Source: Methanohalophilus profundi (GTDB lineage: Archaea; Halobacteriota; Methanosarcinia; Methanosarcinales; Methanosarcinaceae). Taken from it: DNA of 64,000 nucleotides. Of this stretch, positions 1 through 64,000 are shown in pieces. The notes beneath the pieces are model-generated. The model was not told the DNA's origin and did no database searches. It saw only the letters and a list, made by a program, of their open reading frames with translations. Both the position numbers and the translations under genes were made by a program. Position 1 is the first letter of the stretch. The number at the start of each line of letters is the position of its first letter. The stretch lies in NCBI RefSeq assembly GCF_004137855.1, contig NZ_QBKB01000002.1, positions 1,048,180 to 1,112,179 of the forward strand, given 5' to 3'.

Positions 1-1
1 C

Positions 2-289
2 TATAAGGCTGAAAAGTCGGGTAAGAGAACAATAAGAATTGATGAATCATATACTTCAAAAAAATGTTGTGTTTGCGGAACTATCAAGAATATACCACTC
101 GGGGATCGAACATATGAATGTAGTGTATGTGGAAATATTCTGGATAGAGATTCAAATAGTTCAGTAAACATTTTATTGAGGTATCTCAAACATAATGCTC
201 TGTGGACGAGCTATCAACAAACAGTTGATAATCTGCGACAAACAGGTTTATTGATCGGAATTATTCCTAACGGAATGATATCGAGATGA
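2..289 (+). CDS. tnpB: TnpB-family RNA-guided nuclease, C-terminal part
   Basis: These 95 C-terminal residues belong to a TnpB/OrfB protein of an IS605-type element; the N-terminal part lies outside the window. The zinc ribbon is visible as CCVCG and CSVCG. It is followed by the last RuvC acidic residue in DRDSNSSVNI, which matches the family pattern DRDxNAAxNI. TnpB proteins are RNA-guided DNA nucleases that help retain the transposon; that role is family knowledge. The visible part is uninterrupted and ends in TGA. It differs clearly from the TnpBs of the other two elements, so the three elements are not recent copies of one another. Confidence 0.85.
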   Translation, partial: YKAEKSGKRTIRIDESYTSKKCCVCGTIKNIPLGDRTYECSVCGNILDRDSNSSVNILLRYLKHNALWTSYQQTVDNLRQTGLLIGIIPNGMISR

Positions 290-363
290 AGTAAACACTC
301 GCCGGAAGCCGCTTCCTCAAATTAACGTGTCTTTGACACGCTAATTAGGGAGGGGTAGTTCAC
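290..363 (+). ncRNA. Candidate omega-RNA scaffold / right-end hairpin
   Basis: The stretch between the tnpB stop and the right end is where IS605-type elements encode the scaffold of the TnpB guide RNA. It holds a strong inverted repeat around 332-352 and a purine-rich end. If it works like characterised omega-RNAs, the guide would be the flanking host DNA from about position 364. Assignment rests on position and the hairpin only. Confidence 0.35.
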
Positions 364-408
364 TTGTGCAAATAGAATACAAATGTCTAATGCTCTTGTC
401 TGACTAAC

Positions 409-624
409 TCATCCCCCTCCCATATCCGCAAGTTTCCCAACCACCCTCTCCGCAACCTCATCGACCTGACCTTTGCGTTTGCGTTTCTCATACTCTCCAA
501 CAATATGGTCAACCGCTGCACTTTTCCTGCACTCCCTCTCCTTCATCACCCTGTGGATTACCAAAAGAGTATTCCTGTCCACGGTGGTATGGATTATCGT
601 CCTCAGAAAGCCACCTCCTGCAAG
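409..624 (-). pseudogene. Short basic ORF, remnant of unknown gene
   Basis: An open frame of about 70 codons reads toward the left end, with ATG at 546 (45 residues) or alternative upstream starts. The C-terminal half is highly charged (motif EYEKRKRKGQ) and ends in TGA. Neighbouring text upstream at 629-833 looks like another fragment of the same decayed island. I do not recognise a family. It may be a phage or plasmid remnant left between the TnpB element and the defence pair. Confidence 0.3.
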
Positions 625-628
625 AAGA

Positions 629-833
629 TCAGTCCTTGTCCTCCTCGCATAACGTATTCAGTTCTCCGGACAGCGCGTTGGCCTTCTCCAGCACCTCCGG
701 CGAATTGGCGATTTTGGCAGGATTTACCTGCGTGCGGGATACCTCCTGGTTCACATTGACCTTCTCATCCAGTCATAATAGGTGGTGGGATCTATCCCCA
801 CAGCATCACATGCATAGGTTATGAAAACCCCGG
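629..833 (-). pseudogene. Decayed HTH / phage terminase-small-subunit-like fragment
   Basis: On the minus strand the peptide ACDAVGIDPTTYYDWM resembles the helix-turn-helix of phage terminase small subunits and related transposase-like proteins (pattern A-GI--xTYY-W). After a one-base frame change near 765 it continues as a charged helical peptide (SPEVLEKANALSGELN) to a TGA at 629. The N-terminal start is missing. I infer a provirus remnant; the family call is tentative because only about 65 residues are left. Confidence 0.35.
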
Positions 834-850
834 GACTGCAAAAAAGATAA

Positions 851-1493
851 TTACCAGCGCTTTTTGCGGTTTTCTTTTTTTATTTTGTCAATTCTATCGA
901 TTACTTCGTGTACCTGCGTACAGGGATTACTTTCTGTGCTGACAATGTTTATTCCATTGTCATTGTGCATTTTGACCAGTTTTTTGGAGTTTTGAATTGC
1001 ATCTTCCATATTTTCACAGAGCAATTCATAGTAATTTTTACTTTTGGAATATTTTGTCATATATTTATCCAGTCTCTGATATATTCTTTCTTTCACCTGT
1101 CTTTCGGTAACTCTTTCAAAATGTAATAGGAACCAGAGTTTAAAAAAAAGGATTTGAAAAACATATATTTATGCCATTTTTGTTTGCTTTTTCTATTGCT
1201 TCACGCAACTCTTTATTGGTTACTGTTTTGTCCTGATTATCACAATCAAACACACAATAGACATATTCTCCGTCATTTTGGGGATTATACCCGTCATGCC
1301 TCATTCTCTCTATAGCGTATTCAACAACACCTTTTGCATCTTTGTCCTGTGAAGACATCGTTTTAATTGTCAGGTAGGCACCCTTTTCCCTGAAATTTTC
1401 AAAATACAGACGTTCTGTTTTTTCACCCTCACAGACAAGCAACATAATAGAGTTTGTTTTTCTGTTTCCTTTTTTACGATTTCTGGGACTCAT
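851..1493 (-). pseudogene. rloB: RloB / AbiLii-like TOPRIM protein, frameshifted
   Basis: RloB-family protein, the partner of the AAA ATPase encoded just upstream. Such pairs are known as RloAB and as the abortive-infection system AbiL. The TOPRIM-like core is visible as LLVCEGEKTERLYFENF near residue 20 and the acidic CVFDCDN near residue 80. The frame stops at NPFF in a run of eight T (minus strand) near 1140. Removing one T restores FKLWFLLHF and runs on to a TAA at 851, giving about 210 residues, the usual family length. The ATG overlaps the upstream TGA by four bases, so translation is coupled. The break is either an assembly error or a recent homopolymer mutation. Confidence 0.8.
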
Positions 1494-2794
1494 TTTAACA
1501 GACCCTCAAGATTACCTATGAATGGAAGTGCTCCATACTTACCATTAAGATAACCTTTATCAATATTTGCATTTTTCCTCGGATTATATTCGAGAAGTGA
1601 ATACAGGTCTGTAACACCGCCTTCATTCTTTTCCGTAAACCATATCTGGTCTCTTCTAAGTAGATCAACATCTAAGAAATGAGTATTATGACTGGTAAAA
1701 ATTAGTTGTGCACCATTCCTGTTAATCTCCGGGTTATTAAATAAAGATAGTAAAGCTTCACAAAGTAATGGATGTAATTTACTCTCTAACTCATCCACCA
1801 ACAGAACATATCCTTTCTTTAAGGATTCTGTAAATGGCCCGATTAATGAAAAAAATCTTTTCGTACCTTCTGATTCATCATCGTATTCAAATGGCACAGT
1901 TATAGGATTTCCTGTTTTATCCCTGCCATTATGGTAAAACTTAACATCTGCCTTCTTTATCTCAGGAATACTATTCTTTTCTTCTTTTTTGCTGCCTTCT
2001 TCTTGTTCTTTTGCAGTTTCATATTTAATAAAGGATTTAAGATGGTCTGGTAATTCATCGACATCCACTTTTTTTATCGTTGCATCTAAATTACTTATAC
2101 CGAAATCTGCCAAATAGAGCAGATCTATAACCCAATCCTCTATACCTTCATTTTCCTGCATAATTTCAACTGTTATTTCACGTGGCATTCTCTCAGAACT
2201 TATCATTTGTAACTTTCTTGAAAACCACATGAAAGGTATTTTTGTTTTCTCATAATTCTGCTGGGCAGAATTAGAAAAATAAAGTACATTTTCAAGCGTA
2301 CGATCCGCTATTGACCTCTGTTTTCCTTTATCTTTTGTAAATTTGTAGTCGTTTGTATTACTTCTTTCAAAAATAATTGATTTAGTACCCTTTGGATAAT
2401 AATACAAATATTCATCAATTACTTTTTCAGCATTTAACGAGACTCCGTAATTATATCGGACCCCATCCTCTATGAAATCAACTTTTATTTTACAGGGTTT
2501 TGAAAACTGTTCACTGTCAAGTTTAAAGGGGTAAAAAGGAATCTTTTCCCCGGGTACATTTTTAGAAGAATTAAGAATCAGGTTACGGGTATAATTCAGA
2601 GCATGAATCACATTACTTTTTCCTGAAGCATTTGCCCCGTAAATAACAGCTGATCTTAGTAACCTGTCTTTTTTCAGTGTCTTCTTATCTGATATTAAAT
2701 TATATTCATGGGAATTGTCACTCGAAGCAAGCATACTGAATAATACTTCATCTTTCATAGACAGGAAATTTTCTATACTGAAATCTATTAACAT
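1490..2794 (-). CDS. rloA: RloA / AbiLi-like AAA15 ATPase
   Basis: AAA_15/21-type ATPase of 434 residues with an SMC/ABC-like nucleotide-binding fold. Walker A is GANASGKSN at residues 53-61. The region DDESEGTKRFF near 325 is signature-like and VLLVDELESKLHP near 350 is Walker B. These are followed by the conserved histidine switch in FTSHNTHFLD. The N-terminus MLIDFSIENFLSM is typical of the family. It is the first gene of a two-gene operon with RloB. Such pairs act in phage defence by abortive infection; that function is inferred from the family. The gene looks complete. Confidence 0.85.
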   Translation of the reverse strand: MLIDFSIENFLSMKDEVLFSMLASSDNSHEYNLISDKKTLKKDRLLRSAVIYGANASGKSNVIHALNYTRNLILNSSKNVPGEKIPFYPFKLDSEQFSKPCKIKVDFIEDGVRYNYGVSLNAEKVIDEYLYYYPKGTKSIIFERSNTNDYKFTKDKGKQRSIADRTLENVLYFSNSAQQNYEKTKIPFMWFSRKLQMISSERMPREITVEIMQENEGIEDWVIDLLYLADFGISNLDATIKKVDVDELPDHLKSFIKYETAKEQEEGSKKEEKNSIPEIKKADVKFYHNGRDKTGNPITVPFEYDDESEGTKRFFSLIGPFTESLKKGYVLLVDELESKLHPLLCEALLSLFNNPEINRNGAQLIFTSHNTHFLDVDLLRRDQIWFTEKNEGGVTDLYSLLEYNPRKNANIDKGYLNGKYGALPFIGNLEGLLK

Positions 2795-2877
2795 TTTTCC
2801 ATCCTATTAATGAGAAAAAGGCGATCTGATTGATTTTAGAGGATATTTTGCATTTTATGTGCAAATATAAACTGAAA

Positions 2878-2912
2878 TTTGCGTGCAATCTTATAAATGT
2901 ATTGCGTGCAAT
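2878..2912 (+). promoter_or_regulatory. Paired repeat flanking a TATA box (operator-like)
   Basis: TTTGCGTGCAAT (2878-2889) and ATTGCGTGCAAT (2901-2912) are near-identical direct repeats, each close to palindromic. They bracket TTATAAAT (2890-2897), an archaeal TATA-box-like sequence. A repressor bound at the two repeats would cover the promoter, as in autoregulated toxin-antitoxin operons. The plus-strand transcript would read through the decayed hicB relic into the antitoxin at 3075. Confidence 0.5.
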
Positions 2913-2922
2913 AATGTATGAG

Positions 2923-3010
2923 AATGGAACTTAATACAAAAACACAACAGAATTAATAATTATACAATTCACAGCCACCCCCGAGACTGCAGAAGAAAGT
3001 CGACACACGT
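2923..3010 (+). pseudogene. Decayed copy of the hicB promoter and start
   Basis: About 88 bases align without large gaps to 6261-6350, which covers the leader and first codons of the intact hicB at 6300. Shared words include AACTTAATA, GAATTAA/AAATTAA and GCAGAAGAA. The start codon has become ATA (2962) and a TAA appears about 17 codons later, so no antitoxin can be made. This is a relic of a second hicBA locus. Confidence 0.6.
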
Positions 3011-3074
3011 AAAAACCAATTTATTTATACGCCTAACGACATATTTGAGTATACCAAAGCAATGAGGAAATTAC

Positions 3075-3368
3075 ATGTCAAAAACAAGCAAACTACCAAC
3101 TGTTCATTCTATCTTTGATGGACAAATCGGTGCACCAACATGTAAAGACTTCGCAGATTTGCCACGGGATGAACAATCTAAACGCCTTGAAGAAATGGCA
3201 CGGAAGGCAACAACCCGTGCAGCAAAGGATGCTCTCGAAAATGGCAGATCTATTACAATCCAACAGGGTAATGCTATTGTCAGGAAACATCCAGATGGTA
3301 GGATTGAAGTGCTAAAAACACTTGAAAATGCATTTGTAACCCCAAAAAAACGTGTTTATAAGATATGA
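3075..3368 (+). CDS. Putative antitoxin of a zeta-like toxin module
   Basis: A 97-residue basic protein whose TGA overlaps the ATG of the downstream kinase-like gene (ATGA at 3365-3368). This arrangement is typical of a toxin-antitoxin operon. The central part is helical and rich in K/R/E (EEMARKATTRAAKDALENG). The C-terminal part (QQGNAIVRKHPDGRIEVL) looks like a small beta hairpin. I do not recognise a named antitoxin family; the role is inferred from size, overlap and partner. It is intact although the partner gene is interrupted, so the antitoxin may persist alone. Confidence 0.6.
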   Translation: MSKTSKLPTVHSIFDGQIGAPTCKDFADLPRDEQSKRLEEMARKATTRAAKDALENGRSITIQQGNAIVRKHPDGRIEVLKTLENAFVTPKKRVYKI

Positions 3369-3455
3369 AACGGATTCGAATAATCGCGGGTCCAAATGGA
3401 TCAGGCAAATCTACTCTGGTCAAACAATTTACTGAAGATAAGCCCTGGTTACTGA

Positions 3456-4764: not shown

Positions 4765-5402
4765 AAGATAAACAATTCCATATTGATCCTGACAAACTCA
4801 ATATCACAGACACTATTGATTTTGGAAAATTTGGGATACAAACAAATATATCCGAATTCAAAGACCATCTTTTAAGATCAACCCTATTTCCAAAAAGTAA
4901 TATTGACATTGAAGATATCAAATTTGGAAACAATTGTCTTATCAATGATCTAAACAATCCATATGTTGGTTCACTGGTAGCAGATTTCATTAGAGATCAG
5001 CTAGTTGAGTCAGATATCAATTTATTTTCATTTGAAACAGTATTTTCACATGAATCTAAACTTGAATTCATGGAACGAGCTAAGCAAAAAGGTTGGAGCC
5101 TATATCTTTATTTTGTAAGTACATCAGATATTACAATTAATCAAGATCGAGTGAAAGAACGTACTGAGAAAGGAGAGCATAGTGTTCCTGACCAGAAAAT
5201 AATAGATCGATATATAAAATCTAATAATTTTTTATATGACGCATCAAAGCTATGCAGAAGAGCATATGTATTCGACAATTCAACTGAAGGTTCAGCTGTC
5301 TTAATTGCAGAAAAAGATATTGATGGAACTATTCTGATAAAAACTGAAAATCAGTTACCACGCTGGGTTGTTACATATCTTTTTTCGAAACTTGAATCTT
5401 AA

Positions 5403-6299: not shown

Positions 6300-6506
6300 A
6301 TGCAATACACAGTCGTACTTACAGATGCAGAAGAAGGCGGATACACAGCACATTGCCTCGAACTTCCTGCTGCTATCAGTGAAGGCGATACTCGAAAAGC
6401 AGCCCTCGAGAATATAAAGGAGGCAATCCAGCTTGTGCTTGAGGTCACCGAAGAGCAGGCCAGAGTACTTGGTGAAATCACAAAGGTTGATGTTGCAAGT
6501 GTCTGA
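6300..6506 (+). CDS. hicB: HicB-family antitoxin
   Basis: A 68-residue protein with the partial RNase-H-like HicB fold: MQYTVVLTDAEEGGYTAHC at the N-terminus, then SEGDTRKAALENIKEAI. HicB binds and neutralises the HicA mRNA interferase and usually represses its own operon. The hicA start lies inside the last codons of hicB (6490 against stop 6504-6506), so the two are translationally coupled. The leader upstream is duplicated as a relic at 2923-3010. The gene is complete; there is no C-terminal DNA-binding domain, as is common in short HicBs. Confidence 0.9.
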   Translation: MQYTVVLTDAEEGGYTAHCLELPAAISEGDTRKAALENIKEAIQLVLEVTEEQARVLGEITKVDVASV

Positions 6507-7064: not shown

Positions 7065-7087
7065 GAGATGTTGATATATATCATCTC
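7065..7087 (+). promoter_or_regulatory. Palindrome before relB-like gene (operator candidate)
   Basis: GAGATG (7065-7070) and CATCTC (7082-7087) form an inverted repeat around the AT-rich centre TTGATATATAT. It lies 24 bases before the antitoxin start and includes the TATA-like centre. RelB-type antitoxins bind such palindromes to repress their operon; the assignment is inferred from position. Confidence 0.45.
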
Positions 7088-9075: not shown

Positions 9076-10520
9076 ATGAGTGGATTAAGGATTAATGTAG
9101 TTCTTGGCGCCATCGGTTCAATCCTGTGGATCATTGGTATTTTAATGATAATCCCATTCATGGTAGCCGTTTACTACGGCGAACATCTTTTTCCATTTTC
9201 CCTTTCCCTGACAATCACCCTCCTGATTGCATTCATTTTTTCGCTGTTGCTCACAGAGGAAAAGGGCGAATGGAACATGAGAGAAGGTTTCATGATCGTA
9301 GCCCTGGGCTGGCTTACCGCTGCCATCTTTTCTTCAATGCCCTATATATTTGAAGGTACACCCCCGATCAATGCCCTTTTTGAAGCCATGTCAGGAGTAA
9401 CTGCAACCGGTGCTACCGCTCTTGCAGATATTGAAAGTTATAGTAAAAGCTCCTGTTCTGGAGGGCAATGACCCAGTGGGTGGGTGGAATGGGTATCATT
9501 GTTCTATTCATAGTGATCCTGCCAAAACTCGGGGTTGCGGGCAGGCAGATGTTTCGTGCAGAAGTACCCGGTTTGAAAGAAGAACAACTGCGCCCCAGGA
9601 TCAGGGAAACGGCAACTCTGCTCTGGTTTGTTTATATTGGGTTGTCAATTCTCGAATTTATCTTGCTGTATTTCGCAGGATTGAACGCTTATGATGCCAT
9701 AACCCATACCTTCACCTCCATATCATGTGCAGGGTTTTCGACATATTCAGACAGTATAGCAGCTTTTAATAGCCCCATGGTAGAAGGTATCTTCTTAATT
9801 TTCATGATTCTTGGCGGAGCCAACATTGCCCTGCATTACAAAACTATCTTTTCTGACAGGACAAGTCTGATTAAAGATGAAGAGTTCAGGTTCTACCTTT
9901 TAATCATTTTGCTTGCAACCGTGGTACTGGCATATACCCTCACCAGAGGTGAAGTATACGCATTTACAGATTCTTTCAGATACAGCATCTTCCATGTTGT
10001 ATCCATACTGACAACCACGGGTTATGCTACTGTGGATTTTAACATGTGGCCGGACTCCTCCCGTTTTATCCTGTTTTTACTGATGTTTATTGGAGGATGT
10101 GCAGGTTCTACATCAGGCGGAATTAAAGTAGTACGTGTTTTGCTTATGATGAAATATGCAGACAATGTACTTTTCAGAACAGTTCATACAAAAGCGATCA
10201 AACCCATACGGTTCAATAATAGAAGAGTCCCCGAAAATATCATGCATGCCATTGTTTCTTTTTTGATCATATATTTCATGATCTTTATCACAAGTGCAAC
10301 ACTCCTTTCCCTGATGGGAGTGGATTTTGTCACCACTCTCACGTCTTCGATCGCAACCCTGGGGAATGTGGGACCGGGACTTGGGCTTGTGGGACCCATG
10401 GCGAATTTCGGAAATCTTCCGGACCCCGGGATGCTGATCCTTACTGCAAATATGTGGATCGGGAGGCTGGAAGTGTTTACAGTAATAGTGCTTTTAACGC
10501 CTGCTTTCTGGAGACACTAA
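9076..10520 (+). pseudogene. trkH: TrkH-family K+ transporter, frameshifted
   Basis: Potassium uptake membrane subunit of the Trk/Ktr type, about 480 residues. All four selectivity loops are visible: [35 protein letters not shown] and ATLGNVGPGLGLVGP. The C-terminal GRLEVFTVIVLLTPAFWR is typical. The frame breaks near 9445: the first part ends ESYSKSSCSGGQ, while the correct frame gives KLLFWRAMTQWVGGMG. One missing base explains it. A TrkA partner is not adjacent. Since every functional loop is conserved, an assembly error is more likely than inactivation. Confidence 0.85.
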
Positions 10521-16979: not shown

Positions 16980-17399
16980 TCAATCCGTTTTTTCAAGATA
17001 AAGGGTAATATAGCGTGCAAACTTCTCCAGATCACCTGGATGGTTTTGCAAAGAAAGATACACTTTATCCATATCAATGTCGGCATACATGTGCAGAAGT
17101 TCGCCTCTAAAATCTGCAGCAGGAGAGATTTTCCTGGAAAAATCCTGGGGCAAAATTCCATTGTCACCCAGAATGATAAGAATTTCTTTATAGGATTCGG
17201 GTTTTTTCAGTGATTGTCGGGAAATTATCATCTCCCCTACATCTATCATGCATTCAAGAGATACCTCAAGATACCTTTCCACTGCTCCTCTAAGGGTGTG
17301 GTCCTGATTGATGTCATCGAGACTGCAATCCTGATAGCCTTTGAGGATTTCGATCTATTCTGCCAGTAATTCCAGTTTCGAATACATAACCTCATTCAT
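16980..17399 (-). CDS. HepT-like (DUF86) toxin with in-frame TAG codon
   Basis: HepT/DUF86 RNase family, 139 codons from ATG 17399 to TGA 16980. The catalytic RX4HXY motif is visible as RGELLHMY near residue 107. Typical family text is ERYLEVSLECMIDVGEMIIS near 40-59 and ESYKEILIILGDNGILP. Codon 15 (17355-17357) is TAG: the frame reads YSKLELLAE-TAG-IEILKGYQD, continuous on both sides. HepT kills by cleaving RNA and is neutralised by MntA; the only MNT gene nearby is at 10647. If TAG is read as pyrrolysine or suppressed, this is one intact gene. Otherwise translation would have to start downstream, leaving a truncated protein that still has RX4HXY. Confidence 0.75.
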
Positions 17400-19912: not shown

Positions 19913-20798
19913 CTAGTGCATGATTGGTATATTGCCCTGATAGGGGTCGTCTACAAAAAGCAGCTCATTTGTTTCTAAAACTGTCCTGATGTAATCAGGG
20001 ATCTCACCATTTTTCATTTTTGATGAAAGGATTGAAAATTTACTATCCCCGCCACAATCCTCAATCATGATTGGATTTTGATTGTGGTCCATCAGGCAGA
20101 TCCATACACTGTAAAAACTATGGGATTCTGTAAGACTAGCACAGATACCCTGTACAAGTTTAAATTTGTCGTTTTCTGTTACGATAAGCTGGTTTACATT
20201 GCGTATGGATTTTAACACCGAAGTCAGGTACTCAATCCTTTTTTCACTCGTTTTACGTTCGGTGATATCATTGATAATACATATCGTTCTTTCATAATTT
20301 CCATTGGTTTTATTCATACCAGAGGAATTTATTATGACATCAATAAAAGTGCCATCCTTTCTGACCATCTTGTATTCTTTATCGTAGGAATAACCGGTTT
20401 CAAGGATTTGCTGAAGGGATTGGGAAGCTTTATCCAGATAATCAGGATGAATTATCTTTGCCATTGAGTAACCTATGATTTCCTCTCTTTTGTAGCCTAG
20501 GAAATTTTGGACCTGATTGTTGCAGTCAACAATTATGCCCTCCGCATCGACAGAGGTAATCAGATTTGCAGCGGTATCAAAGATGGACCTGTAGTCCTCT
20601 TTGGCTTTCAAGGCCTGTTCGTAGGAGTTGTTTATCTCATTGATCTGGGGTATTACGTAAAATAAAAATGAAAGGCCAGTTACAAGAACAAAGAACCATC
20701 CTTTATAGGTTTGCAGCAGGCTATATAGCCTAATATCAGAAACAAACCAGCCCAATACCATATCTGAAAAAAGGATACAAAGGCTCAAAAAATAACAT
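19913..20798 (-). pseudogene. Membrane PAS-GAF sensor, 3' end lost at insertion element
   Basis: The N-terminus has two hydrophobic segments. They are followed by a PAS domain (YRSIFDTAANLITSVDAEG to TICIINDITERK, about residues 65-185) and the start of a GAF domain (SFYSVWICLMDHNQNP). The frame reaches TAG at 19913, 40 bases before the TnpB element, and the expected kinase domain is missing. An ATG at 20798 would fit the N-terminus if the following T-run had one base fewer. The remaining protein could sense but not signal. The lost 3' part was probably removed by an insertion-linked deletion. Confidence 0.75.
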
Positions 20799-32877: not shown

Positions 32878-33165
32878 ATGATAATAGAACAGATCGAACT
32901 GGAAAATGGTACAGCACAGGGTCTCAAATGGGAATTTGAAAACGCTTCCTTGCTCCTGATCAAAGCCGACATGGGTTATGTAATGTGTGGCTATCTCAAT
33001 ATGGAAACTGCAGACAAGCTGGGAGATTTGGCTGCTGTGGTAAGCGGTGTGGACAGTTTTGAAGATGTACTGCAGGCATCTCTGAAATCTGTGAGCAAAA
33101 AGGCCCTTGACATTGGAATTGAGGAAGGTATGACCGGCAGACAGGCCCTTGAAAAGATGTTCTGA
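32878..33165 (+). CDS. DUF1805 (YunC-like) protein
   Basis: A 95-residue DUF1805 protein. Family features are KADMGYVMCGYLNMETADKL near residue 35 and the C-terminal GMTGRQALEKMF. The ATG at 32878 is preferred because it follows the previous stop and gives the usual length. Function of the family is unknown. It sits in the map operon and its stop overlaps by spacing with the Trm-G10 gene (two bases between). Confidence 0.8.
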   Translation: MIIEQIELENGTAQGLKWEFENASLLLIKADMGYVMCGYLNMETADKLGDLAAVVSGVDSFEDVLQASLKSVSKKALDIGIEEGMTGRQALEKMF

Positions 33166-33166
33166 T

Positions 33167-34203
33167 ATGCGCTACGCTTTTGAGCTTTCCGGAGACCATG
33201 AAGAAATCGCTGCAGACGAGGCTCTGGCCTGTCTGGCTACCGAAGGTCTCAATCCGGTATACACGCAGCATTATGATCACTGTCTTGTGGTGGAACTTGA
33301 AGAGCCGGATGCCGAAATCAGGTTGGAAAAAATCGCCGGCAAACTGGCCATGGGCCATCATATCCTGCGGGTTGCTTTCATCTGCAATAATGAACCCGAA
33401 ACCATCATTCCAGTGCAGAAAACTGCGACATAAAACCCCATCTTTCTGCAGGCCAGACCTTTGTAGTGCGTGTCCGGAAGGTCAATCACCATACCAGCGA
33501 GGAAGGCTCCTACCTGGAACAGAGGGTAGGCGGAGCTGTTTTCAGGAAGGGATACAGGGCCAATCTCAACCAACCCGATGTTACCCTGAGGCTCATACTG
33601 ACTGAAAAATGCGTGTGTGGCTCTGTCATTGCATCCATAGACCGCAAGGCCTTCCATGCACGTGCACCCCACAAGAAACCCTTTTTCTATCCCGGAGTAC
33701 TCATGCCCATTACAGCCCGGGCGCTGGTAAACCTTGCAGGGGTAAACAAGGATACCAGACTGCTGGATCCGTTCTGCGGTACCGGCGGCATACTTGTGGA
33801 AGCGGCCATGCTGGGTTCAGAGGTAATCGGTCTGGAAGCACGCAATGAGATCATACAGGGAGCAAAACTAAATCTGGAATATTTCGGCGGGGGTTATAAC
33901 CTGCTGCAGGGAGATGCCTGTAAATTACCCCTCAAAAACAGCTGTATTGATTCAGTGATCACCGATCCACCCTATGGCAGGTCTGCCATGATCAAGGCAG
34001 AATCCATCCGGCATTTATACGAAGAATCTTTCGCAGAAATGTACAGGGTCCTCAAACCCGCCAGTAAAGCAGTGATCGTCTCGGAGATGGAGATTAACAG
34101 AATCGCACTGGATGTGGGATTCACCATATTAAAACAGTACAGCCAGAAAATACACAGAAGCCTGACCCGCAATATCACAATTTTGCAAAAAAATAATCAG
34201 TGA
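33167..34203 (+). pseudogene. tRNA (guanine-10-N2) methyltransferase, frameshifted
   Basis: Trm-G10/Trm11-type enzyme of about 345 residues, modifying G10 in tRNA. The N-terminal THUMP-like part (MRYAFELSGDHEEIAADEAL) is followed by a Rossmann methyltransferase. It carries the SAM motif LLDPFCGTGGILVEAAMLG near residue 200 and the catalytic DPPYGRS near 265. The frame breaks near 33420: one part ends PVQKTAT, while the correct frame reads ENCDIKPHLSAGQTFVVRV. One base explains it. All motifs are conserved, so an assembly error is likely. Its stop meets the convergent YgjP-like gene at 34197-34203. Confidence 0.85.
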
Positions 34204-35594: not shown

Positions 35595-36301
35595 TTACAC
35601 CTTTCTCCTATTATAAATTTCCCACAACGCAAGTACTGCTATTATAAACAGGCATCCGAAGAAGAACCACACGCCTATATGGGAGAGGAAATCCACAGAT
35701 ATCAGACTGCTGGCATCTGCTGCACCTGCCGATTCACCGGCTGCCCTGGCAGCTTCTGTGGTTGCGTTTGTGGGAGCTCCGCCAGCAAAAAGGGCCGTAT
35801 CATTGCTGGTATTGCCAGCCGCATCTCAGACATCACCGCAGGGGCAACCGGTGGCGTGGTCTGGCCCAGAGGTTCAAAATCCCTGAGATATTCAATACCC
35901 AGTGCTGCAAATAGAGCCGCTCCTGCCATTGCCACATATTTGCGCAGCATACCGAGGATACTGGAGCGATCGGTTTTGCTGCTACCCGGGACCACCACGA
36001 TCATTTTTTGCATGGGTTCATATATCTTGATCTCCCTGCCCTTGCGACTCCATTTGGTCTCCTTTACCTGTATGAGTTCGCTTTCCAGCAAGCCATCCAG
36101 ATTATACTTGATAGTGGTAAGGGGCATATCAAGCTCTTCGGCTATCGAAGTTGCAGACATGGGCTGTCTTGCGAGTAATTCCAGGATCTTCAGGGATTTC
36201 TCATTGGAAAGGGTCTGGGTGATTTTACGTGAATCTTCATTTAAAGGTAAAACCAATACTTTTTCCGTATTGTCATCGTTTTCCATACAAAGGAGTATCA
36301 A
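35595..36301 (-). pseudogene. Winged-helix regulator with membrane segments, frameshifted
   Basis: The N-terminal half is a winged-helix DNA-binding domain of ArsR/MarR-like type (LKILELLARQPMSATSIAEE, then LTTIKYNLDGLLESELIQV). It is followed by a hydrophobic segment (KYVAMAGAALFAALGIEYL), a Pro-rich linker and, after a frame change near 35815, a second linker (GGAPTNATTEAARAAGESA). A C-terminal membrane helix (IGVWFFFGCLFIIAVLALW) ends with NRRKV. The frameshift-corrected protein would have about 235 residues. Such membrane-tethered one-component regulators are common in methanogens. The start could also be ATG 36286. Confidence 0.75.
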
Positions 36302-43916: not shown

Positions 43917-45330
43917 ATGGAATTGAAAACCCCTATACTGTTGCTTTCAAATGACCTCTATGTCCATGGTGAGTGGCTCACTTCCAATAAAAAGATGGTA
44001 AAAGACGCATCCATACTTAATATGCAGGATTTCAGGAACTTAGCCCCTGAATCACAGCAAGAACTGCTAGAAAGCCATGGTACTCTGTATATAATTACAT
44101 CTGCCAATGAAGGATCTTTGCCCCAAGTACTGGACATATGTAATAATGAAATATACCACATAAAGGCTGAAGAATGTCAGGACGGCGATAAATCCGCTTA
44201 TTTGCATATCCTCAATGCAAAACTTATGGAATTAATGCTTAAGCAAAAAGAAACAGAAAATCAGAAGCTCGAAGAACAGCTTGCCTCTTACTTAATAGCA
44301 ATGGATTCAGTTTATACTTTATCCTCATATGAACGGAAAGAGGATATTATAAATCATACAAAAGAATTCTTTGCAATGATGTGCCTGCCCGAAAACCTGT
44401 GTTATTTTGAGGCACATAACACAAAAGCACAAAGTGGCATACATCTTACTGATTTCCAGAAAAAGGAAATTGTAGCTTTTCTTAAAAGCAAAGAATATTA
44501 CAAAATAGCCCCCTCAAAAAAGAGTTTCTGTTTCAGGTTAAGTTTAAAGGACGGGGATGAAGGGATATTTGTTCTGGAAAATATAGCCTACCCGAGTCGC
44601 TTACATGAATTCCTGAATTTAACATTGAGCATTCGCACTGTACTTACACTAATGCTGGAGAATATTGCCAGGCAGAATGAACTGGTGAAGTCACATAATT
44701 TGCTTGCCGATGCAAACGATATGCTGCAAGTAATTAACAAGATCTTGCGTCATGACCTGGCTAATAACCTGGGCGCTATTAAAATGTCCCTGGAGATGAA
44801 TGAAGCCAGGCCTAATCCAAAATACATCCAGATTTCCAAAAAAGCTGTTGACCGCAGTTTTGAAAAAATCAATGACATGAAAGGACTTGAAAACCTTATT
44901 GGTACCGGGAAAGACCTTGACTGTTATGAAGTGAAGGAAATAATAGAAAAAATTGCAGGTACAGATATTGAAATGGATATTTCCATTGATGGCCATTGCA
45001 AGGTTCTGGCAGATAACGCCTTATCTTCCGTTTTTGAAAATATAATAAAAAATGCAATTGCTCATGGTAAAGCCAATAAAATGAGGATAAAAATGGCACC
45101 TTCCGGGAAGTATTGTCATATTTCCATAGAGGATAAACGGCACAGGAATCCCCGATGAAATAAAGACCAAAATCTTCAAGGAAGGATTTACTTAGGGAGG
45201 GGATAGCAATTCTGGACTGGGTCTGTATATTTCAAAAAAGGTTATAGAAAGATATGGAGGCCAAATTGAAGTAAAGGATAACACACCACATGGAGCAAAG
45301 TTCATCCTTGATATACCCTCTACAAAATGA
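43917..45330 (+). pseudogene. Histidine kinase with frameshift and in-frame TAG
   Basis: About 470 residues: N-terminal sensor-like domain, a coiled coil near 110-125, a GAF-like domain, then a HisKA-like region with HDLANNLGAIKMSLEM (phosphoacceptor His) and a HATPase domain. The N-box is SVFENIIKNAIAHG. After one extra A near 45130 is removed, the frame reads GTGIPDEIKTKIFKEGFT, then TAG at 45193-45195, then GGDSNSGLGLYISKKVIE and a normal C-terminus ending in TGA 45330. The TAG replaces the residue before the GG of the G2 box, usually Tyr. No receiver domain is adjacent. It follows the corrinoid/methyltransferase pair and may regulate it. Confidence 0.8.
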
Positions 45331-46161: not shown

Positions 46162-46914
46162 ATGTCAGGGGACGCAGTATATCTACACGAAAGTGACACT
46201 GTGACCCATGCTCGCCAGTTGATGAGAGATCATTTTCTAAGGGGAATTCCTGTTGTGAACGACAATGGGAAGGTTTCGGGAATGATCACTGATCAGGATA
46301 TTTTAAAAGTGGCATCCACAAAATCAAATGTCACTGTTGCCGGTTTTGTGAACCCGGTCCCACAGATAACACCTGAGACTGATATTTAGAGGGCCGCTTC
46401 CTTGCTACTGGAAGCAAAACTTGAAAGATGTCCCGTGGTTAAAAGTTCCATTGAACAAAACCTGGCAGGAATTGTAAGCAATACCGATCTTCTTGGCAAA
46501 ATGGTGAAGCGGGATTTATCAAAATCAGTCAGGGAGATCATGACCTCTCCTGTCACCACATGCACACCGAAAGATAACATCGGGGAAATCTGGTCTGCTA
46601 TGCTTGAAAATGATTATACAGGCCTTCCGGTGGTCTCAAAGAAAAATAAACTGATGGGCATGGTTACCAGGAGAGACCTGATAAAATCGGGGTTTGCACG
46701 TATAGGAGTCAGGGAAAAAGACGGCAGCATACATAATCAGCCAGTTGAGAAAGTAATGTCAACACCTGCCTACAGCATCAAACAGGATACATCCGTTAAA
46801 GAATGTACAGAAAAAATCCTGCATTATGATATCGGCAGATTAACAGTGGCTGTTGAAGACAAACCTGTAGGCATTGTAGACAGAAGCGACCTGCTCAGGG
46901 CCTATACCGAATAA
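46162..46914 (+). CDS. CBS-domain protein with in-frame TAG codon
   Basis: About 250 residues with four CBS motifs (two pairs). The first is MSGDAVYLHESDTVTHARQL, with GMITDQDIL. Between the first and second motif, codon 46387-46389 is TAG: PVPQITPETDI-TAG-RAASLLLEAKLERCPVV, continuous on both sides with no frame change. The second pair follows (EIMTSPVTTCTPKDNIGEI and GMVTRRDLI). Related CBS proteins have an aromatic or small residue at the TAG position. No clear ribosome binding site precedes ATG 46162; the leader at 46131 (GGGGG) may serve a start about 22 bases upstream if one base is missing. It is the second of five CBS genes. Confidence 0.8.
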
Positions 46915-50859: not shown

Positions 50860-51900
50860 ATGACTAAAATCGCAATTATCGGAAGTGAGGGAAGCGGCAG
50901 GACTTCCCTGGCGGCAAAACTGGGTAAAAAGAGCACAGCTGCAGATATCACCATGTATGATTATGCCAAGAACGATGTGGTGATGACAACAATCGATGCC
51001 AACGGCTATCCCAAATCCGTCAAACCCCTTGTCACTGCCCTGCAACTTTCCGACATAGCCCTGCTCTGCATTCCACCACAAGGCCCTGATGCCTTTGCCG
51101 GGGAATGTATCATGGCTCTGGACCTCATGCAGTACAAGCACGGGATTGTCGTGCTCACCAAAGCGGATACCTCATACCCCTACGCCCAGGAAGAACTCCA
51201 GAAAAATTTACAGAAAATCCTGTCCCCGACCACTCTGGCAAGCTGGGAATTTGTAAACCTGTCCACCCAGTCCTTCGAAGGTCTGGATGAGATCAAGGAA
51301 AAGATCTTTGAGCTTGACGGGCAGGTCAATTCCGAATATGAAAAACTCAACGATAAACCTGTCCGTATAACTGTTGACCAGTCCTTCAATGTCACGGGAA
51401 TTGGCTGTGTGGTACTGGGAATTGTGGAACAGGGTACTGTGAATGCAAAAGATAAATTGACAGCCTACCCTGCGGACAAGCCTCTGGAAGTAAGGTCTAT
51501 CCAGATGCATGATGAAGATGTAAAAAGTGCTCCTGCGGGCGCCAGGGTCGGCCTTGCCCTTAAAGGTGTCCAGTCAAAGGATATTGAAAGGGGTTTCATT
51601 ATTTCTGAAAAGGAAGAGGTTGCTGAATCCCTCGTACTGGAATGTACCCTTTCCTCTTTTGCTTCTCCTCTCAGGATATCCGATGTACCCCATATTTTCA
51701 CAGGCCTGCAATCATCGCCCATGCGTATTGAGAAAATCGAGATTGATGGAACGGAAGCCGAGCAGGTTAATGCCAGTCAGCAATGCACACTTCATTTAAA
51801 CGGCTCCCATGAAATAGCCTACAGACAGCAGGACAGATTCATAATCACAAACCTGGATGCAAAACAGCGTTTTACAGGTTACGGCTTCATCAAAGAATAA
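50860..51900 (+). CDS. SelB-like translation GTPase (aSelBL type)
   Basis: A 346-residue EF-Tu/SelB-like protein. The G1 motif is degenerate (GSEGSGRTSL instead of GxxxxGK[ST]) and G3 is not recognisable (CIPPQGPDAF). A G4-like LTKAD is present near residue 105. Two beta-barrel domains follow (RITVDQSFNVTGIGCVVLGI near 170, typical of SelB domain 2). This matches the archaeal SelB-like family described as having lost the canonical GTPase motifs. The function is unknown. It lies between the RNA ligase (47 bases upstream) and the convergent KaiC-like gene. A link to UAG decoding is tempting but not established. Confidence 0.75.
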   Translation: MTKIAIIGSEGSGRTSLAAKLGKKSTAADITMYDYAKNDVVMTTIDANGYPKSVKPLVTALQLSDIALLCIPPQGPDAFAGECIMALDLMQYKHGIVVLTKADTSYPYAQEELQKNLQKILSPTTLASWEFVNLSTQSFEGLDEIKEKIFELDGQVNSEYEKLNDKPVRITVDQSFNVTGIGCVVLGIVEQGTVNAKDKLTAYPADKPLEVRSIQMHDEDVKSAPAGARVGLALKGVQSKDIERGFIISEKEEVAESLVLECTLSSFASPLRISDVPHIFTGLQSSPMRIEKIEIDGTEAEQVNASQQCTLHLNGSHEIAYRQQDRFIITNLDAKQRFTGYGFIKE

Positions 51901-57006: not shown

Positions 57007-57293
57007 ATATTCACCTCATATTTAGTGCTCATGAGGCAAAATCACGTAAATTTTAAAAATTATTAAAATCAACAATAGTTTTGCCTATGGGCGAATTGGG
57101 GTTCAACTCAATCTTCCAGAGAACAGCTGAACCCCACATTATAAAATAATACTACTGTTATATATGCTCTAGTAAAAGGTTAATATATGTTATCCGTTTG
57201 AATAACATAAAATTTCAGATATCAAAATTTGAATGCTTAGAAAACAAATTGACAGTAACTTTGAATCGGATAGAAATTTCAGTTTTTAAAATA

Positions 57294-59272: not shown

Positions 59273-59281
59273 ACAATCACC

Positions 59282-60529
59282 TTACATACCTGTATTATAC
59301 CGCAAAATCGCAACAATGCCACCAAAAGCATTGAGAAGCTGGCCGCCTTCCTCAAAATCAGTTGATATGAAAGCCACATCACTTCCCATCTGATCACTCA
59401 GTTCCGAGAGTTCATCCACGATATCTACCCTTTCAACAACTTCCAGGGAAGATCCGCATTTAGGACAGTTGCCAAAGTCATCCACATTTTCCTGGTCCGG
59501 TTGGTTTTCCCGGGTTATATTATCTTCATAATCCCCGGTGGTACACCTGATCTTTATTCTTTCAGACCTCAGGTCCTCGGATATCAGCAGTGTCTCCACA
59601 GCCCCTATCATCAGGTTCTGACGCACTACTTCCTCACCATAGGCAGCCTTTCCGGAATCGGATACCAGTTCCTTGAAAAACTTTTGCATCAGGTTCTTTT
59701 CCACCATCAGGTCCAGATCCTGCAGACGGTCACTTGCAGCATTGACAAGTTCCTGTAATCCTGATTCATCGGTGTAGGCCACATCAAAGAGGCCCAGTAT
59801 TTTCCTTCGCAACTCATGATGCAGGAAATCTCCTGATTGGAATTCTTCCTTGGTCGGGGAAGGCCCACCCAGCAATATTCCCTCAAAATCCTTCATGTCA
59901 ACCGCCATGAAGATTTCACTGGCCGCATTTCCTATACGCTTGTAGAAATCGTGTATCGCTATAAGCCTCAGCTGCTGGAAACGCTGTGCACTCTGACCAC
60001 CTTTTCTCTGTTTACCCGGCACTGTTGAGGTAAGGTTACGATAGGGTTCTATATGTTTACCTGTAAGTAAACCAATTGTAGCTTCCCTTCTGTCAAGCAC
60101 AAGCAAACCGTAGGTCTTGGCTTCCTTGAGCATTCCTTCAAGAGGTTCGAGGAAAAAGTCAGAGTCGCAGTGATACTTGTAGATGGTAAGAGGTTGGGGA
60201 GGGATTATGGTCGTGGTTTCCATATTCGTTTTGTCCGCACCTACATCCACAGCTCCAGTAAAATAAACGATACCGTTTTCCGGGATCTCAAGATATTTAA
60301 GACGGGAAAGTAGAGAATCAATTGCAGACTGTACATTGGTCTTTGTGACCTTGGATTTTATGTTAGAAGCCTGACTGTGTTCGGTCTTAAGCTGTGAGGT
60401 CACATCGGACAGCTGTTTGTCAGGCGGTATGTAAAGGGATATGAGTTCAGTACCCCTTCCCTTTTTATTTCGGAGGGATTCAAGTTTTTTCTTGAATTCA
60501 TATTTTTCATGAGCAGATTGTTCGGCCAT
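59282..60529 (-). CDS. prf1: Peptide chain release factor aRF1
   Basis: A 415-residue aRF1 that recognises stop codons and triggers peptide release. The anticodon-like motif NIKS is in QASNIKSKVTKTN near residue 55, and YxCxxxF is in YKYHCDSDFFLEPL near 125. The GGQ peptidyl-transferase motif is in RKGGQSAQRFQQLRL near 180. All motifs are canonical, so this factor should read UAG as well as UAA and UGA. That matters because in-frame TAG codons occur elsewhere in this window. The gene is followed by argS. Confidence 0.95.
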   Translation of the reverse strand: MAEQSAHEKYEFKKKLESLRNKKGRGTELISLYIPPDKQLSDVTSQLKTEHSQASNIKSKVTKTNVQSAIDSLLSRLKYLEIPENGIVYFTGAVDVGADKTNMETTTIIPPQPLTIYKYHCDSDFFLEPLEGMLKEAKTYGLLVLDRREATIGLLTGKHIEPYRNLTSTVPGKQRKGGQSAQRFQQLRLIAIHDFYKRIGNAASEIFMAVDMKDFEGILLGGPSPTKEEFQSGDFLHHELRRKILGLFDVAYTDESGLQELVNAASDRLQDLDLMVEKNLMQKFFKELVSDSGKAAYGEEVVRQNLMIGAVETLLISEDLRSERIKIRCTTGDYEDNITRENQPDQENVDDFGNCPKCGSSLEVVERVDIVDELSELSDQMGSDVAFISTDFEEGGQLLNAFGGIVAILRYNTGM

Positions 60530-60635
60530 TGTAAGGATACTCCATAATCAGAAATTAATCAAAATGTCGGGATATTCGCTATGCTCTAGGCTTACCATAT
60601 AAGCCATTATTATAAATATAAGTTATGACAGTGCG

Positions 60636-61568
60636 TCAAACGGGCAATTTAGAAGCGACAAACTTTCCATCACGACAGAGCATGACAACACGACTTATTT
60701 CAACCTGATCGCCAACTTCATAGCCCAATTCACAACCAAGCTGATTTGCAAAATCAAGAACTTCTTCATGGCCTGGCATGGCATCCCTTTCAAGCCGGTT
60801 TCTGGAAAAACCCAGATGCATATAGGCTTTTACCTCAATAATATCAGGCTGTGCCTTTCTGATAAGGTCCGCATAACCTTTCACATCAAACATATTCACA
60901 CCCTTGATTAGAGTAATACGAATAGCAGTCCTGCATTCTTTATCTTTAAGGACACTGAGGGATTCATTTATGTTATCCCATAAACACGGATCCTTTGGAG
61001 AACAAACCTTCATGTAGGTCTGCCTGTCAGGAGCATCCAGGCTCATGTAGAGCTGGGAAGGTTCAATGCGTTTGATCATTTCGACAACAGTGCCGTTGGT
61101 TACCACAAAGGTACTCACGCCTCTGCTGCGAAATTCTTCGATCAGTTCATCCAGATAAGGATAAAGGGTAGGTTCACCGGATAGGGAGATAGCCACATGT
61201 GCGGGTTCATTGGCCTGTTGCCACAATTCTCTTGAGGCCGAACCTCCAAAACCCGAAATGAGGTTGCGCTGACACTCTATTGAAGACCCCATTATTTCCA
61301 CTGGAGAATCCCATTTTGAGGGAGTTGGGACATCAAGCTCAACCGGCCTCCAGCAGTGCAGGCAGCGCTGGTTACAGCACAGGGTAGGAGTCATCTGCAA
61401 ACATCTGTGGGAAGCTATCCCATAAAAACGGGCTTTATAACATTCTCCTTCCTCACGCACAGCCCTTCTCATCCACAGACATGTTTTGACAGCTGAATGG
61501 GATCCTGCAAGTCTGTATCCCTGTTTTTTTATTAATGTATCAATATCAGGTAATAAATCTGAAGCCAT
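60636..61568 (-). CDS. taw1: 4-demethylwyosine synthase (Taw1/TYW1)
   Basis: A 310-residue radical-SAM enzyme. The CxxxCxxC cluster motif is in LCCNQRCLHCWRPVELD near residue 65, with further Cys in GECYKARFYGIASHRCLQ. A Ser/Gly-rich SAM-binding segment SLSGEPTLYPYLDE is near 128. It makes 4-demethylwyosine at position 37 of tRNA-Phe from pyruvate. It lies alone between aRF1 (106 bases) and DP1 (39 bases). Confidence 0.9.
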   Translation of the reverse strand: MASDLLPDIDTLIKKQGYRLAGSHSAVKTCLWMRRAVREEGECYKARFYGIASHRCLQMTPTLCCNQRCLHCWRPVELDVPTPSKWDSPVEIMGSSIECQRNLISGFGGSASRELWQQANEPAHVAISLSGEPTLYPYLDELIEEFRSRGVSTFVVTNGTVVEMIKRIEPSQLYMSLDAPDRQTYMKVCSPKDPCLWDNINESLSVLKDKECRTAIRITLIKGVNMFDVKGYADLIRKAQPDIIEVKAYMHLGFSRNRLERDAMPGHEEVLDFANQLGCELGYEVGDQVEISRVVMLCRDGKFVASKLPV

Positions 61569-61607
61569 CCGGACTAACTCTTAACTGGCATTATATAAAA
61601 TGCACGT

Positions 61608-63068
61608 TCAAAACTGCAGCATGGTCGGCTGGAAAGTGGCAAGATCAACCACCGGAACCCTTGCAGGTTCGGGTACCACATTCACCCGCTTCTGGAATTC
61701 GGTCTGGTCCTGCCATGTTCCTGAATTAATGAGCAGGGTGCCCCTGTACTGCTTCACCCCTACGGTATGGACATGTCCACAATGCAGTATATCGGGGATG
61801 TGATCGATAACAAAATGGTCAGTCTTCTCCGGGGCTATAGAAACCCTGCTGCCATAGGTAGGGGATAGATGGCGACGCTTTACCATTTCCAGCATTGCTT
61901 TTTCAGGTTCACTGTAGGAAATTCCCTGTATACTCGCCACAAAATCATCTATAGAGCGGCCGTGGTACATCAGCACAAGCACACCATCCAGATCCACCAG
62001 AGCAGGATTGCCCACGAATTTTATCCTGGGATCAAACATTTTCCTGATACGCTCCGGGAATGTGGGCTGGGGTTCAGCCTGGCGTACAGCATCGTGGTTA
62101 CCAGGACCGATAACTACTGTAATATCAGAAGGTATCTGGTTGAAATAGTGGGCAATTTCCTCATACTGGTCATAAATATCCGGTATGGTAAGCTCATTTT
62201 CCTGTCCTGGATAAATACCCACCCCATCTACAATATCACCGGCAACCACAATATAGCGTAATTGCTGTGCTATTTTGTTAAGCTCGGGGTTTTCAGATTC
62301 CCTCTTGACAAAAGTCATGAAATCGTCCCATTGCTCCTGCAGGAAGGTATTGCTGCCTATATGCACATCTGAAATGAAAAGGGCTTTCCCCTGGCTACCG
62401 GTTTTGGATAAACCCATATTGGGCAGATCCGGAAACACAAGTTTTTTGGCTATCAGGAGTTTGCCGTCATTGGTGAGATTGCCACTTACCCCCACCACAT
62501 CATCCAGGACAAGTTTGTTAGATTCCTCATAAATATCCTTATCATTCATACTGAAAAGGACCTGGAAGGAACCCGTAGGGTCTTCAAAACGTACCAGACG
62601 ATGACCATTGGATGTATTTTTAATCTCAGATACCATACCGATTATGGAAATCTCATCCCCGGGAACACGTCTTTTGCCTTTCAGGCTTTCCATGGGTCTG
62701 GCATTGACCCTGCCGCGGATCATCTCACTCAGCCGGCTGTAACGGTTGCGGAAATACTGTACAAATTCCATGTATTCCCCCACACAGGTGGAACAATCGG
62801 TTATATCGCAAAGCACAGAAATAGGATTTGCAGAAGTTGTATTTGCAACAGGTTCCTTTTTGCATGGAATCTCTGCTTCTCTTACTTCTTCAAATCCCGT
62901 GAAATCAATATCCTCAACGTCTATAACAAATACCGAATCATCCACACTCCCCAATATGTGATTTATAAGGGCACGGGGATTGTTGTGAGAAGTTATAAGC
63001 TCGGCTGCTTGGGGACTTACCTGGTAGCCTGCTTCAAGCAAATCGGAAAGAAGAGACATTTCTTGCAT
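61608..63068 (-). CDS. polB: DNA polymerase D small subunit (DP1)
   Basis: A 486-residue DP1, the exonuclease subunit of archaeal DNA polymerase D. It has an N-terminal helical part, an OB fold and a calcineurin-like phosphoesterase with motifs FISDVHIGSNTFL near residue 228, GDIVDGVGIYPGQ, GPGNHDAVRQAEP near 320, MYHGRSIDDF and LHCGHVHTVG near 435. The Cys cluster CDITDCSTCVGEYM near 88 is present. The DP2 partner is not in this window. The start could also be three codons downstream at MSLLSD. Confidence 0.9.
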   Translation of the reverse strand: MQEMSLLSDLLEAGYQVSPQAAELITSHNNPRALINHILGSVDDSVFVIDVEDIDFTGFEEVREAEIPCKKEPVANTTSANPISVLCDITDCSTCVGEYMEFVQYFRNRYSRLSEMIRGRVNARPMESLKGKRRVPGDEISIIGMVSEIKNTSNGHRLVRFEDPTGSFQVLFSMNDKDIYEESNKLVLDDVVGVSGNLTNDGKLLIAKKLVFPDLPNMGLSKTGSQGKALFISDVHIGSNTFLQEQWDDFMTFVKRESENPELNKIAQQLRYIVVAGDIVDGVGIYPGQENELTIPDIYDQYEEIAHYFNQIPSDITVVIGPGNHDAVRQAEPQPTFPERIRKMFDPRIKFVGNPALVDLDGVLVLMYHGRSIDDFVASIQGISYSEPEKAMLEMVKRRHLSPTYGSRVSIAPEKTDHFVIDHIPDILHCGHVHTVGVKQYRGTLLINSGTWQDQTEFQKRVNVVPEPARVPVVDLATFQPTMLQF

Positions 63069-63209
63069 TACAGACCTCTATATTGATAATGTAGTTACAA
63101 GAATTTTCCTGTATAACAATACTTTGGTAAACATTCTTTTATCAAGAATAAACCAATAAGTTTAAAGTTCTTACAGACAAATTTGGTTTGTTAATTCGGA
63201 GAAATATTC

Positions 63210-63764
63210 ATGGAAATCGGGGAAATAATTCATACTTTTAAAAACAGCGATAATTTTTGGGTAGGAATCGCACGTGACGGGTTATCGGTACTGGCTATTC
63301 TTGCAGTTATCGGCATCCTATCCCAGCTATTCTTTGGCATGTGGACCCCAATGGTTGCGGTGGAGTCGGGAAGTATGGAACCCCACATGTACAGGGGAGA
63401 CATAATCTTTATTGAAGATCTGGACAGGACGCAGATAGAAACACTCCGGAATGCACCTGCGGACTATATCTCATTTGAAAAAAAGGGAGACGTTATCTTA
63501 TACCGACCCTACGGGCAGAAAGGGGTGACCCCGGTAATCCACAGGGCCATGTATTTTGTTGAAGAAGGCGAACAAATGTGGGAAGGGGGACCTGAAGCTC
63601 CACATGAAGGTTACATAACCAAAGGGGATAATACGAAAACAAATAGCTACTATGACCAGCAGGGCCAGATCAGTTATCTTACTCCTGTAAAAGAAGAATG
63701 GATCATCGGTGTTGCCCGTTACAAGATTCCTTATATTGGACATATAAGGTTACTATTGTCCTGA
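63210..63764 (+). CDS. sip: Signal peptidase I (archaeal S26B type)
   Basis: A 184-residue membrane peptidase. An N-terminal membrane helix (VLAILAVIGILSQLFFGMW) is followed by the catalytic Ser in ESGSMEPHMYRGDIIFIED near residue 52. The archaeal His is in TPVIHRAMYFVEEGE near 110 and the Asp block is YITKGDNTKTNSYYDQ. This Ser-His-Asp pattern is that of archaeal and ER signal peptidases. It would cleave the Sec signal peptides of the many exported proteins in this window. Confidence 0.9.
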   Translation: MEIGEIIHTFKNSDNFWVGIARDGLSVLAILAVIGILSQLFFGMWTPMVAVESGSMEPHMYRGDIIFIEDLDRTQIETLRNAPADYISFEKKGDVILYRPYGQKGVTPVIHRAMYFVEEGEQMWEGGPEAPHEGYITKGDNTKTNSYYDQQGQISYLTPVKEEWIIGVARYKIPYIGHIRLLLS

Positions 63765-63788
63765 TATATTTCTAAAAAGAAAGACAGG

Positions 63789-64000
63789 TTACACCTGCTT
63801 AATATATAGCCCCAGGATCATATCTTTATAATCACTTCCGGCAGGAACCTTTGGATAGAGTACTTCTTCCCTGTCTGTGAGAATTTCCAAAAAACAGGGG
63901 CCCTTTGCTTCTAAAAAGGTATTTATTGTCTCTTCCAGTACTTCTCTTTCAGTTATCCGTGCCGTATAATTGAAACCAAAAGATTGTGCAATTGCTGCAA
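63789..64000 (-). CDS. Acetolactate-synthase-like TPP enzyme, C-terminal end
   Basis: The last 69 residues of a thiamine-pyrophosphate enzyme whose start lies beyond the window. The text AAIAQSFGFNYTARITERE, then GPCFLEILTDREEVLYPKV and PAGSDYKDMILG, matches the end of acetolactate synthase large subunits and related decarboxylases. It ends in TAA. The full function cannot be assigned from this piece. Confidence 0.65.
   Translation of the reverse strand, partial: AAIAQSFGFNYTARITEREVLEETINTFLEAKGPCFLEILTDREEVLYPKVPAGSDYKDMILGLYIKQV

Follow-up and report, generated by a model that had tools for sequence, protein, structure and literature searches.

The window analyzed here, a 64 kb stretch of the genome of Methanohalophilus profundi (G000; 1.83 Mb in 4 contigs, ∼90% complete), holds genes that bear on how this archaeon reads the codon UAG. 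The organism is a Methanohalophilus: its archaeal release factor aRF1 (59282-60529, minus strand; TIGR03676, 598.9 bits) and the Methanohalophilus euhalobius protein are 95% identical, and the nearest of the genomes searched, G035, shares 98% protein identity at proS, the gene of prolyl-tRNA synthetase (ProRS), and 97% at a CBS protein. Two genes of the window are crossed by an in-frame TAG in a frame that is otherwise open. The first encodes a protein with four CBS domains (46162..46914, plus strand; Pfam CBS, 173.8 bits in 4 stretches with the TAG read through) and has its TAG at 46387-46389, codon 76. Its orthologues in G031, G032, G034, G035, and G036 are uninterrupted and 94-97% identical, and at this position they have Tyr (TAC), except for G036, which has Gln (CAA). 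The second encodes a HepT-family RNase of a toxin-antitoxin pair (16980..17399, minus strand; NCBIfam HepT, 97.8 bits, cut-off 60), with a TAG at 17355-17357, codon 15. Here Tyr is found in 17 of the 19 relatives read, the remaining two being misplaced alignments, and three copies from the same genus are uninterrupted. Separately, HepT-like matches in three genomes of genus group g13 (G087, G092, and G095) contain one internal TAG each.

An earlier note on this DNA had pointed to four in-frame TAGs as examples. All four are in the sequence; those in hepT and the CBS gene interrupt otherwise open frames, and the other two carry little weight. The first of these lies in a histidine-kinase-like gene (43917..45330, plus strand; TAG at 45193-45195) with a +1 insertion near 45135: alignment with G035, G032, and G034, as well as a split tblastn match, place the extra base in a run of A, and the gene is read in one frame at 43917-45134 and in another at 45136-45327. 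Its 413-aa first part has no Pfam match, and the name is given because of a C-terminal ATPase-like sequence, read by eye. The second is a truncated PAS-domain sensor (19913..20788, minus strand; Pfam PAS families) that ends in TAG at 19913-19915. The match to G035 runs out at residue 281 of 291, before this TAG is reached, and we take the TAG as chance sequence past a break.

The use of TAG at gene ends was counted on ends supported by orthologues, i.e., those whose last residues align with the C-terminus of an orthologue in another genome of the same genus. In the window, such ends comprise 25 TGA, 17 TAA, and 0 TAG (n = 42), which bears out the earlier statement that complete genes here do not stop at TAG. 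The skew is the same in a wider sample of 464 kb, about one quarter of G000, with 6 of its 20 stretches chosen to cover pyl, methyltransferase, or tRNA-synthetase matches: 130 TGA, 118 TAA, and 1 TAG (n = 249), or 0.4%. TAG makes up 16.9% of all stop triplets in the same DNA, and given this share, the chance of 0 TAG in 42 ends is 4e-4, and that of at most 1 in 249 is 8e-20. The depletion of TAG among the gene ends of G000 is real, and UAG is practically absent as a terminator over this quarter of the genome.

Counting by mechanical open reading frames (ORFs) alone was tried and dropped, as it inflates TAG ends. In the window, it gives 31 TGA, 27 TAA, and 2 TAG at ≥100 aa, and 13 TGA, 10 TAA, and 0 TAG at ≥300 aa; in the sample, TAG ends 16 of 377 ORFs, or 15 of 353 at ≥150 aa. 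These figures exceed the supported count because they include ORFs cut at a pyrrolysine codon, frameshifted genes, and ORFs for which no orthologue was fetched. In the relatives, supported TAG ends number 6/338 (G032), 8/321 (G034), 11/443 (G035), and 2/100 (G036), or 1.8%-2.5%. They include pylB in each of the four genomes, together with ORFs of 355 codons, the length of mtbB (one in G034 and two in G035), of which the sole one examined, at L268, proved to be mtbB interrupted by its pyrrolysine codon. One end in G036 belongs to a 203-codon ORF that terminates 3 residues short of its orthologues. The others are ORFs of ≤84 codons, many of them repeated, and real small genes ending in TAG are possible among them.

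How could UAG be read, if not as a stop? The earlier note had proposed pyrrolysine, and the search for pylT and pylS that it called for found both. In G000, pylT, pylS, pylB, pylC, and pylD follow one another in a row. ARAGORN detects tRNA-Pyl, with anticodon CUA, at L104:8880-8951; PylS scores 695 bits at full length and 370 bits for its C-terminal domain, and PylB (517 bits), PylC (446 bits), and PylD (350 bits) are all over the NCBIfam cut-offs. An in-frame UAG occurs in two mtmB genes, mtbB, and mttB, and a read-through scan by codon score found 5 TAGs flanked on both sides by coding sequence, namely those of these four genes and one in proS. As for the methyltransferases, a third gene of the MtmB family was seen at L098:8931-10430 (minus strand; G000:C2:384930-386429), adjoining mttB. 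It has no TAG and a Pfam MtmB score of 294 bits; judged by the sequence, this pyrrolysine-using archaeon also has an MtmB homologue that contains no pyrrolysine.

The TAG of proS (G000:C2:161534-161536, minus strand) provides the strongest single argument, a biological one, that private TAGs of G000 are real. ProRS is an essential enzyme; a single full-length copy was found in G000, itself ∼90% complete, and its frame is otherwise intact (TIGR00408, 639 bits with the TAG read through). The five closest relatives of the same genus have TGG (Trp) in three cases, GGC (Gly), and TCC (Ser) at this codon. Downstream of the TAG, G000 and G035 differ by 21 synonymous and 7 nonsynonymous codons, compared with 33 and 14 between G035 and G036, so that the first ratio is no more skewed than the second. 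In G037, proS has a TAG of its own at another site, and Lys at the position of the G000 TAG. A further TAG lies in an amidohydrolase gene (L112), where G032, G034, and G035 have Tyr. The comparison across strains that the earlier note had suggested shows that the TAGs of hepT and the CBS gene, and likewise those of proS and the amidohydrolase, occur in none of the relatives of the same genus whose gene was read.

The explanation that we favor, with a probability of about 0.88, is that this Methanohalophilus makes pyrrolysine and a CUA tRNA for it, and that the translation of UAG as pyrrolysine competes with an aRF1 of normal appearance, with the result that UAG stops are purged and internal UAGs are tolerated. 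Genes ending in UAG would often be extended, which would drive the loss of this terminator; mutations to an internal UAG would be tolerated because the codon is read, and they would appear as private changes, as in the CBS, HepT, amidohydrolase, and prolyl-tRNA synthetase genes. We infer that each of these private UAGs is real in the organism and translated as pyrrolysine. That termination at UAG should still compete, as the earlier note held, agrees both with the release factor of the window, whose motifs are canonical as claimed (NIKS at 56, YHCDSDF at 119, and GGQ at 177), and with experiments on Methanosarcina acetivorans (PMC2933860). In that species, one aRF1 reads all three stops and the second copy is inactive, while a UAG reporter gave an apparent read-through of 20-30% (PMC2933860).

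Of the rival explanations, the one that survives best limits pyrrolysine to the methylamine methyltransferases and takes the TAGs of proS, the CBS gene, hepT, and the amidohydrolase gene as base-calling errors. We regard it as rather unlikely, yet several observations weigh in its favor or against the explanation given above. Frameshifts affect 22 of 215 loci in G000, against 0/270 in G032, 1/243 in G034, 5/357 in G035, and 0/88 in G036, which suggests that G000 is an error-rich assembly; the private TAGs may thus be single-base errors and need confirming. In the window alone, the genes at 9076-10517 (plus strand), 33149-33906 (plus), and 35598-36301 (minus), in addition to the kinase-like gene (plus), are split by frameshifts with respect to G035 or G036, likely through assembly errors. 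All internal stops in the five genomes amount to 20 TAG, 17 TAA, and 12 TGA (n = 49), a TAG share that is indistinguishable from the mutational expectation of 0.33-0.40. In another genus, a TGA lies within proS of G073, so that errors, too, can put a stop into proS. The raw share of TAG among mechanical ends, 4.2-4.7%, also weighs against the favored explanation, and the absence of the TAGs in question from relatives of the same genus favors the rival.

A TAG excess does appear among lone internal stops that lie beyond residue 40 but within the first 90% of the length (6 TAG, 2 TAA, and 1 TGA; n = 9), and again at ≥85% identity (5 TAG and 1 TGA; n = 6), with p 0.02-0.04 for the filtered sets. 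This filter, however, was picked after the list had been seen, and its limit at residue 40 narrowly leaves out a lone TAA (7685 of the window) and a lone TGA (L095:12651) of G000, which stand at residues 37 and 38. With a cut-off at residue 30, applied to fewer genomes, 4 of 6 lone stops are TAG. A TAG that all five genomes show around residue 19 of one 507-aa query was set aside as a start-site difference.

Against base-calling errors stand three points. Past residue 40, no lone TAA or TGA was listed in an alignable gene of G000, although the two at residues 37-38 remain. A single base change separates three TAGs from the codon of a relative, and the changes differ in kind (TGG, TAC, and TAT to TAG). 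Finally, relatives with few frameshifts also hold private TAGs: G032 in its kinase orthologue, G036 in a gene for a UPF0020-type methyltransferase (the family being assigned via the G035 orthologue), and G034 in more than one gene.

A second rival, in which base composition or chance keeps TAG rare and the in-frame TAGs mark pseudogenes, is very improbable. In many genomes TAG is the least used stop, and the kinase and sensor examples are indeed broken genes; yet TAG is ∼17% of stop triplets but 0.4% of supported ends, Methanolobus has 15.9% TAG ends at a similar G+C content (0.437), and proS is essential and was found as a single full-length copy, though in a genome that is ∼90% complete. Least credible of all is a near-cognate tRNA or a second suppressor reading UAG instead of tRNA-Pyl: the relatives' residues at the TAG codons, Tyr, Trp, and Gln among others, are those that a suppressor might insert, but tRNA-Pyl is the only CUA tRNA that ARAGORN detected in the window and 20 loci (about one quarter of the genome).

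The avoidance of TAG is not a simple sign of pyl genes across the family. PylS exceeds its cut-off in 99 of the family's 111 genomes, and the ends of ORFs of ≥150 aa (in a table where eight genus groups have n < 30) are TAG in 25/1509 cases in the Methanohalophilus relatives, next to the 15/353 of the G000 sample, in 1/69 in Methanococcoides, and in 9/152 in Methanosarcina, but in 13/82 in Methanolobus and 6/40 in ANME-3; outside the family, Methanotrichaceae have 38/178. Genus names in this table were assigned by eye, by way of the contig coordinates of aRF1. For G000, the earlier note's reading of TAG avoidance is supported: a normal TAG share, looked for over a quarter of the genome, and a lack of pyl genes would both have spoken against it, and neither was found. 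The motifs of aRF1 do not explain the difference between genera, because NIKS, YxCxxxF, and GGQ occur in every one of 56 sequences compared (56 of 56), whether the group is TAG-poor or TAG-normal. Six aRF1 columns do separate the two groups, and kinship alone may account for them. A second full-length aRF1, 60-66% identical, was seen in G006, G007, G009, and 12 genomes of g13, and thereby in the groups g13 (Methanosarcina) and g5; none was found at the cut-off used in the other genera of the family, Methanohalophilus included. The window that encodes aRF1 also encodes a SelB/EF-Tu-like GTPase (50860..51900, plus strand; TIGR00475 selB, 139.8 bits, under the cut-off of 242), which we take to be probably of the aSelBL kind, once proposed as EF-Pyl.

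The sole supported TAG end in the G000 sample belongs to the pyrrolysine cassette itself. It is the stop of pylB (L104:11321-11323, plus strand; G000:C2:829320-829322), one base before the ATG of pylC. The gene ends in TAG in all five genomes of the supported-end count and in 8 of the 8 Methanohalophilus read; a conserved gene with a UAG stop does exist in the genus, unless the 39-codon extension of pylB is made. The survey covered 50 of the 98 family genomes with a pylB match, and gave 30 TAG, 15 TGA, and 5 TAA. TAG is found in Methanohalophilus (8/8), Methanococcoides (7/7), Methanosarcina (6/6), and g5 (4/4), and in the smaller groups g4 (2/2), g3 (1/1), g11 (1/3), and g12 (1/2), whereas in the 9 Methanolobus read pylB always ends in a TGA that overlaps an ATG. 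One base, as counted by eye, separates the TAG from a start codon in the pylC frame in 29 of 30 cases (ATG 22, GTG 1, TTG 4, and CTG 2), the exception being G065. The read-through extension varies from 12 to 42 codons among genera, which disfavors a conserved extra domain. In print, pylB ends in TAG in Methanosarcina mazei, M. acetivorans, and Methanococcoides burtonii, and in TAA in Methanosarcina barkeri, and M. acetivorans PylB works in Escherichia coli with its TAG changed to TAA (PMC2933860).

Why would genera that purged TAG keep it here? One possibility, tentative and to our minds unlikely, is that pylB keeps its terminal UAG as a sensor for charged tRNA-Pyl, with feedback on PylC. With little pyrrolysine, ribosomes would terminate at this UAG and could restart on pylC; with ample pyrrolysine, they would translate a further 12-42 codons, passing the pylC start in a different frame, and less PylC would be made. 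Such a loop can be likened to the feedback on bacterial release factor 2 and, if true, would explain the TAG stop kept in these genera. TAG ends 51 of 2144 ORFs in the seven genus groups where pylB mostly ends in TAG (g1, g3, g4, g5, g7, g12, and g13), against 25 of 142 in the four where it mostly ends in TGA (g2, g10, g11, and g14); this Fisher test left out g6 (2/27), g8 (0/5), and g9 (no locus), and related genomes are not independent. Alternatively, the TAG may have been retained by chance within a few lineages. The excerpts of PMC2933860, PMC3941956, PMC11467909, PMC8211752, and PMC9499178 contain no mention of a regulatory role for the pylB UAG.

The phenomenon as such is mostly known in kind for the Methanosarcinaceae. 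Methanosarcina, Methanococcoides, and Methanohalophilus mahii are like G000 in their pyl genes, in the UAG of mtmB, mtbB, and mttB, and in having few TAG stops; TAG avoidance in pyrrolysine-decoding members of the family has been described (PMC3941956, PMC4153887), and Methanohalophilus genomes carry a tRNA for pyrrolysine (PMC6491703). The raw TAG share of G000, 4.2%, is close to the 4-5% of Methanosarcina (PMC4153887), while the supported count of 1/249 is lower but obtained by a different method. Private ambers in otherwise intact conserved genes, of the kind seen in G000 proS, have precedents in the citrate synthase of M. mahii (PMC3017947) and in Thg1 of M. acetivorans, where pyrrolysine was observed (PMC2933860), and these are taken as neutral gains of pyrrolysine; the difference is that the G000 gene, a prolyl-tRNA synthetase, is part of translation, and that its amber is known from sequence alone. 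Candidatus Methanomethylophilus alvus has 1.6% TAG stops and 16 further predicted pyrrolysine proteins (PMC4153887). It belongs to another methanogen order, and shares with G000 the very few TAG stops and the in-frame ambers in conserved genes. Kivenson and others, in Science in 2025, reportedly described an archaeal "Pyl code" in which all TAG are read as pyrrolysine. The use of TAG as a general sense codon would be alike in the two cases, whereas pylB of G000, a genome read here only at the level of DNA, keeps TAG as an apparent stop. Two details appear to be new: the candidate pyrrolysine site in prolyl-tRNA synthetase, and how widely pylB ends in TAG, a stop already in print for three species.

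What these data add is a Methanohalophilus genome that treats UAG almost as a sense codon and has, in an essential tRNA synthetase, a candidate site for pyrrolysine. If that site is real, this strain would depend on pyrrolysine for making any protein, well beyond the use of methylamines. Within the family, some genera purge TAG and others use it normally, with PylS and the same aRF1 motifs in both, and this makes the discrimination of UAG more testable; the pylB junction is one concrete site at which it can be studied.

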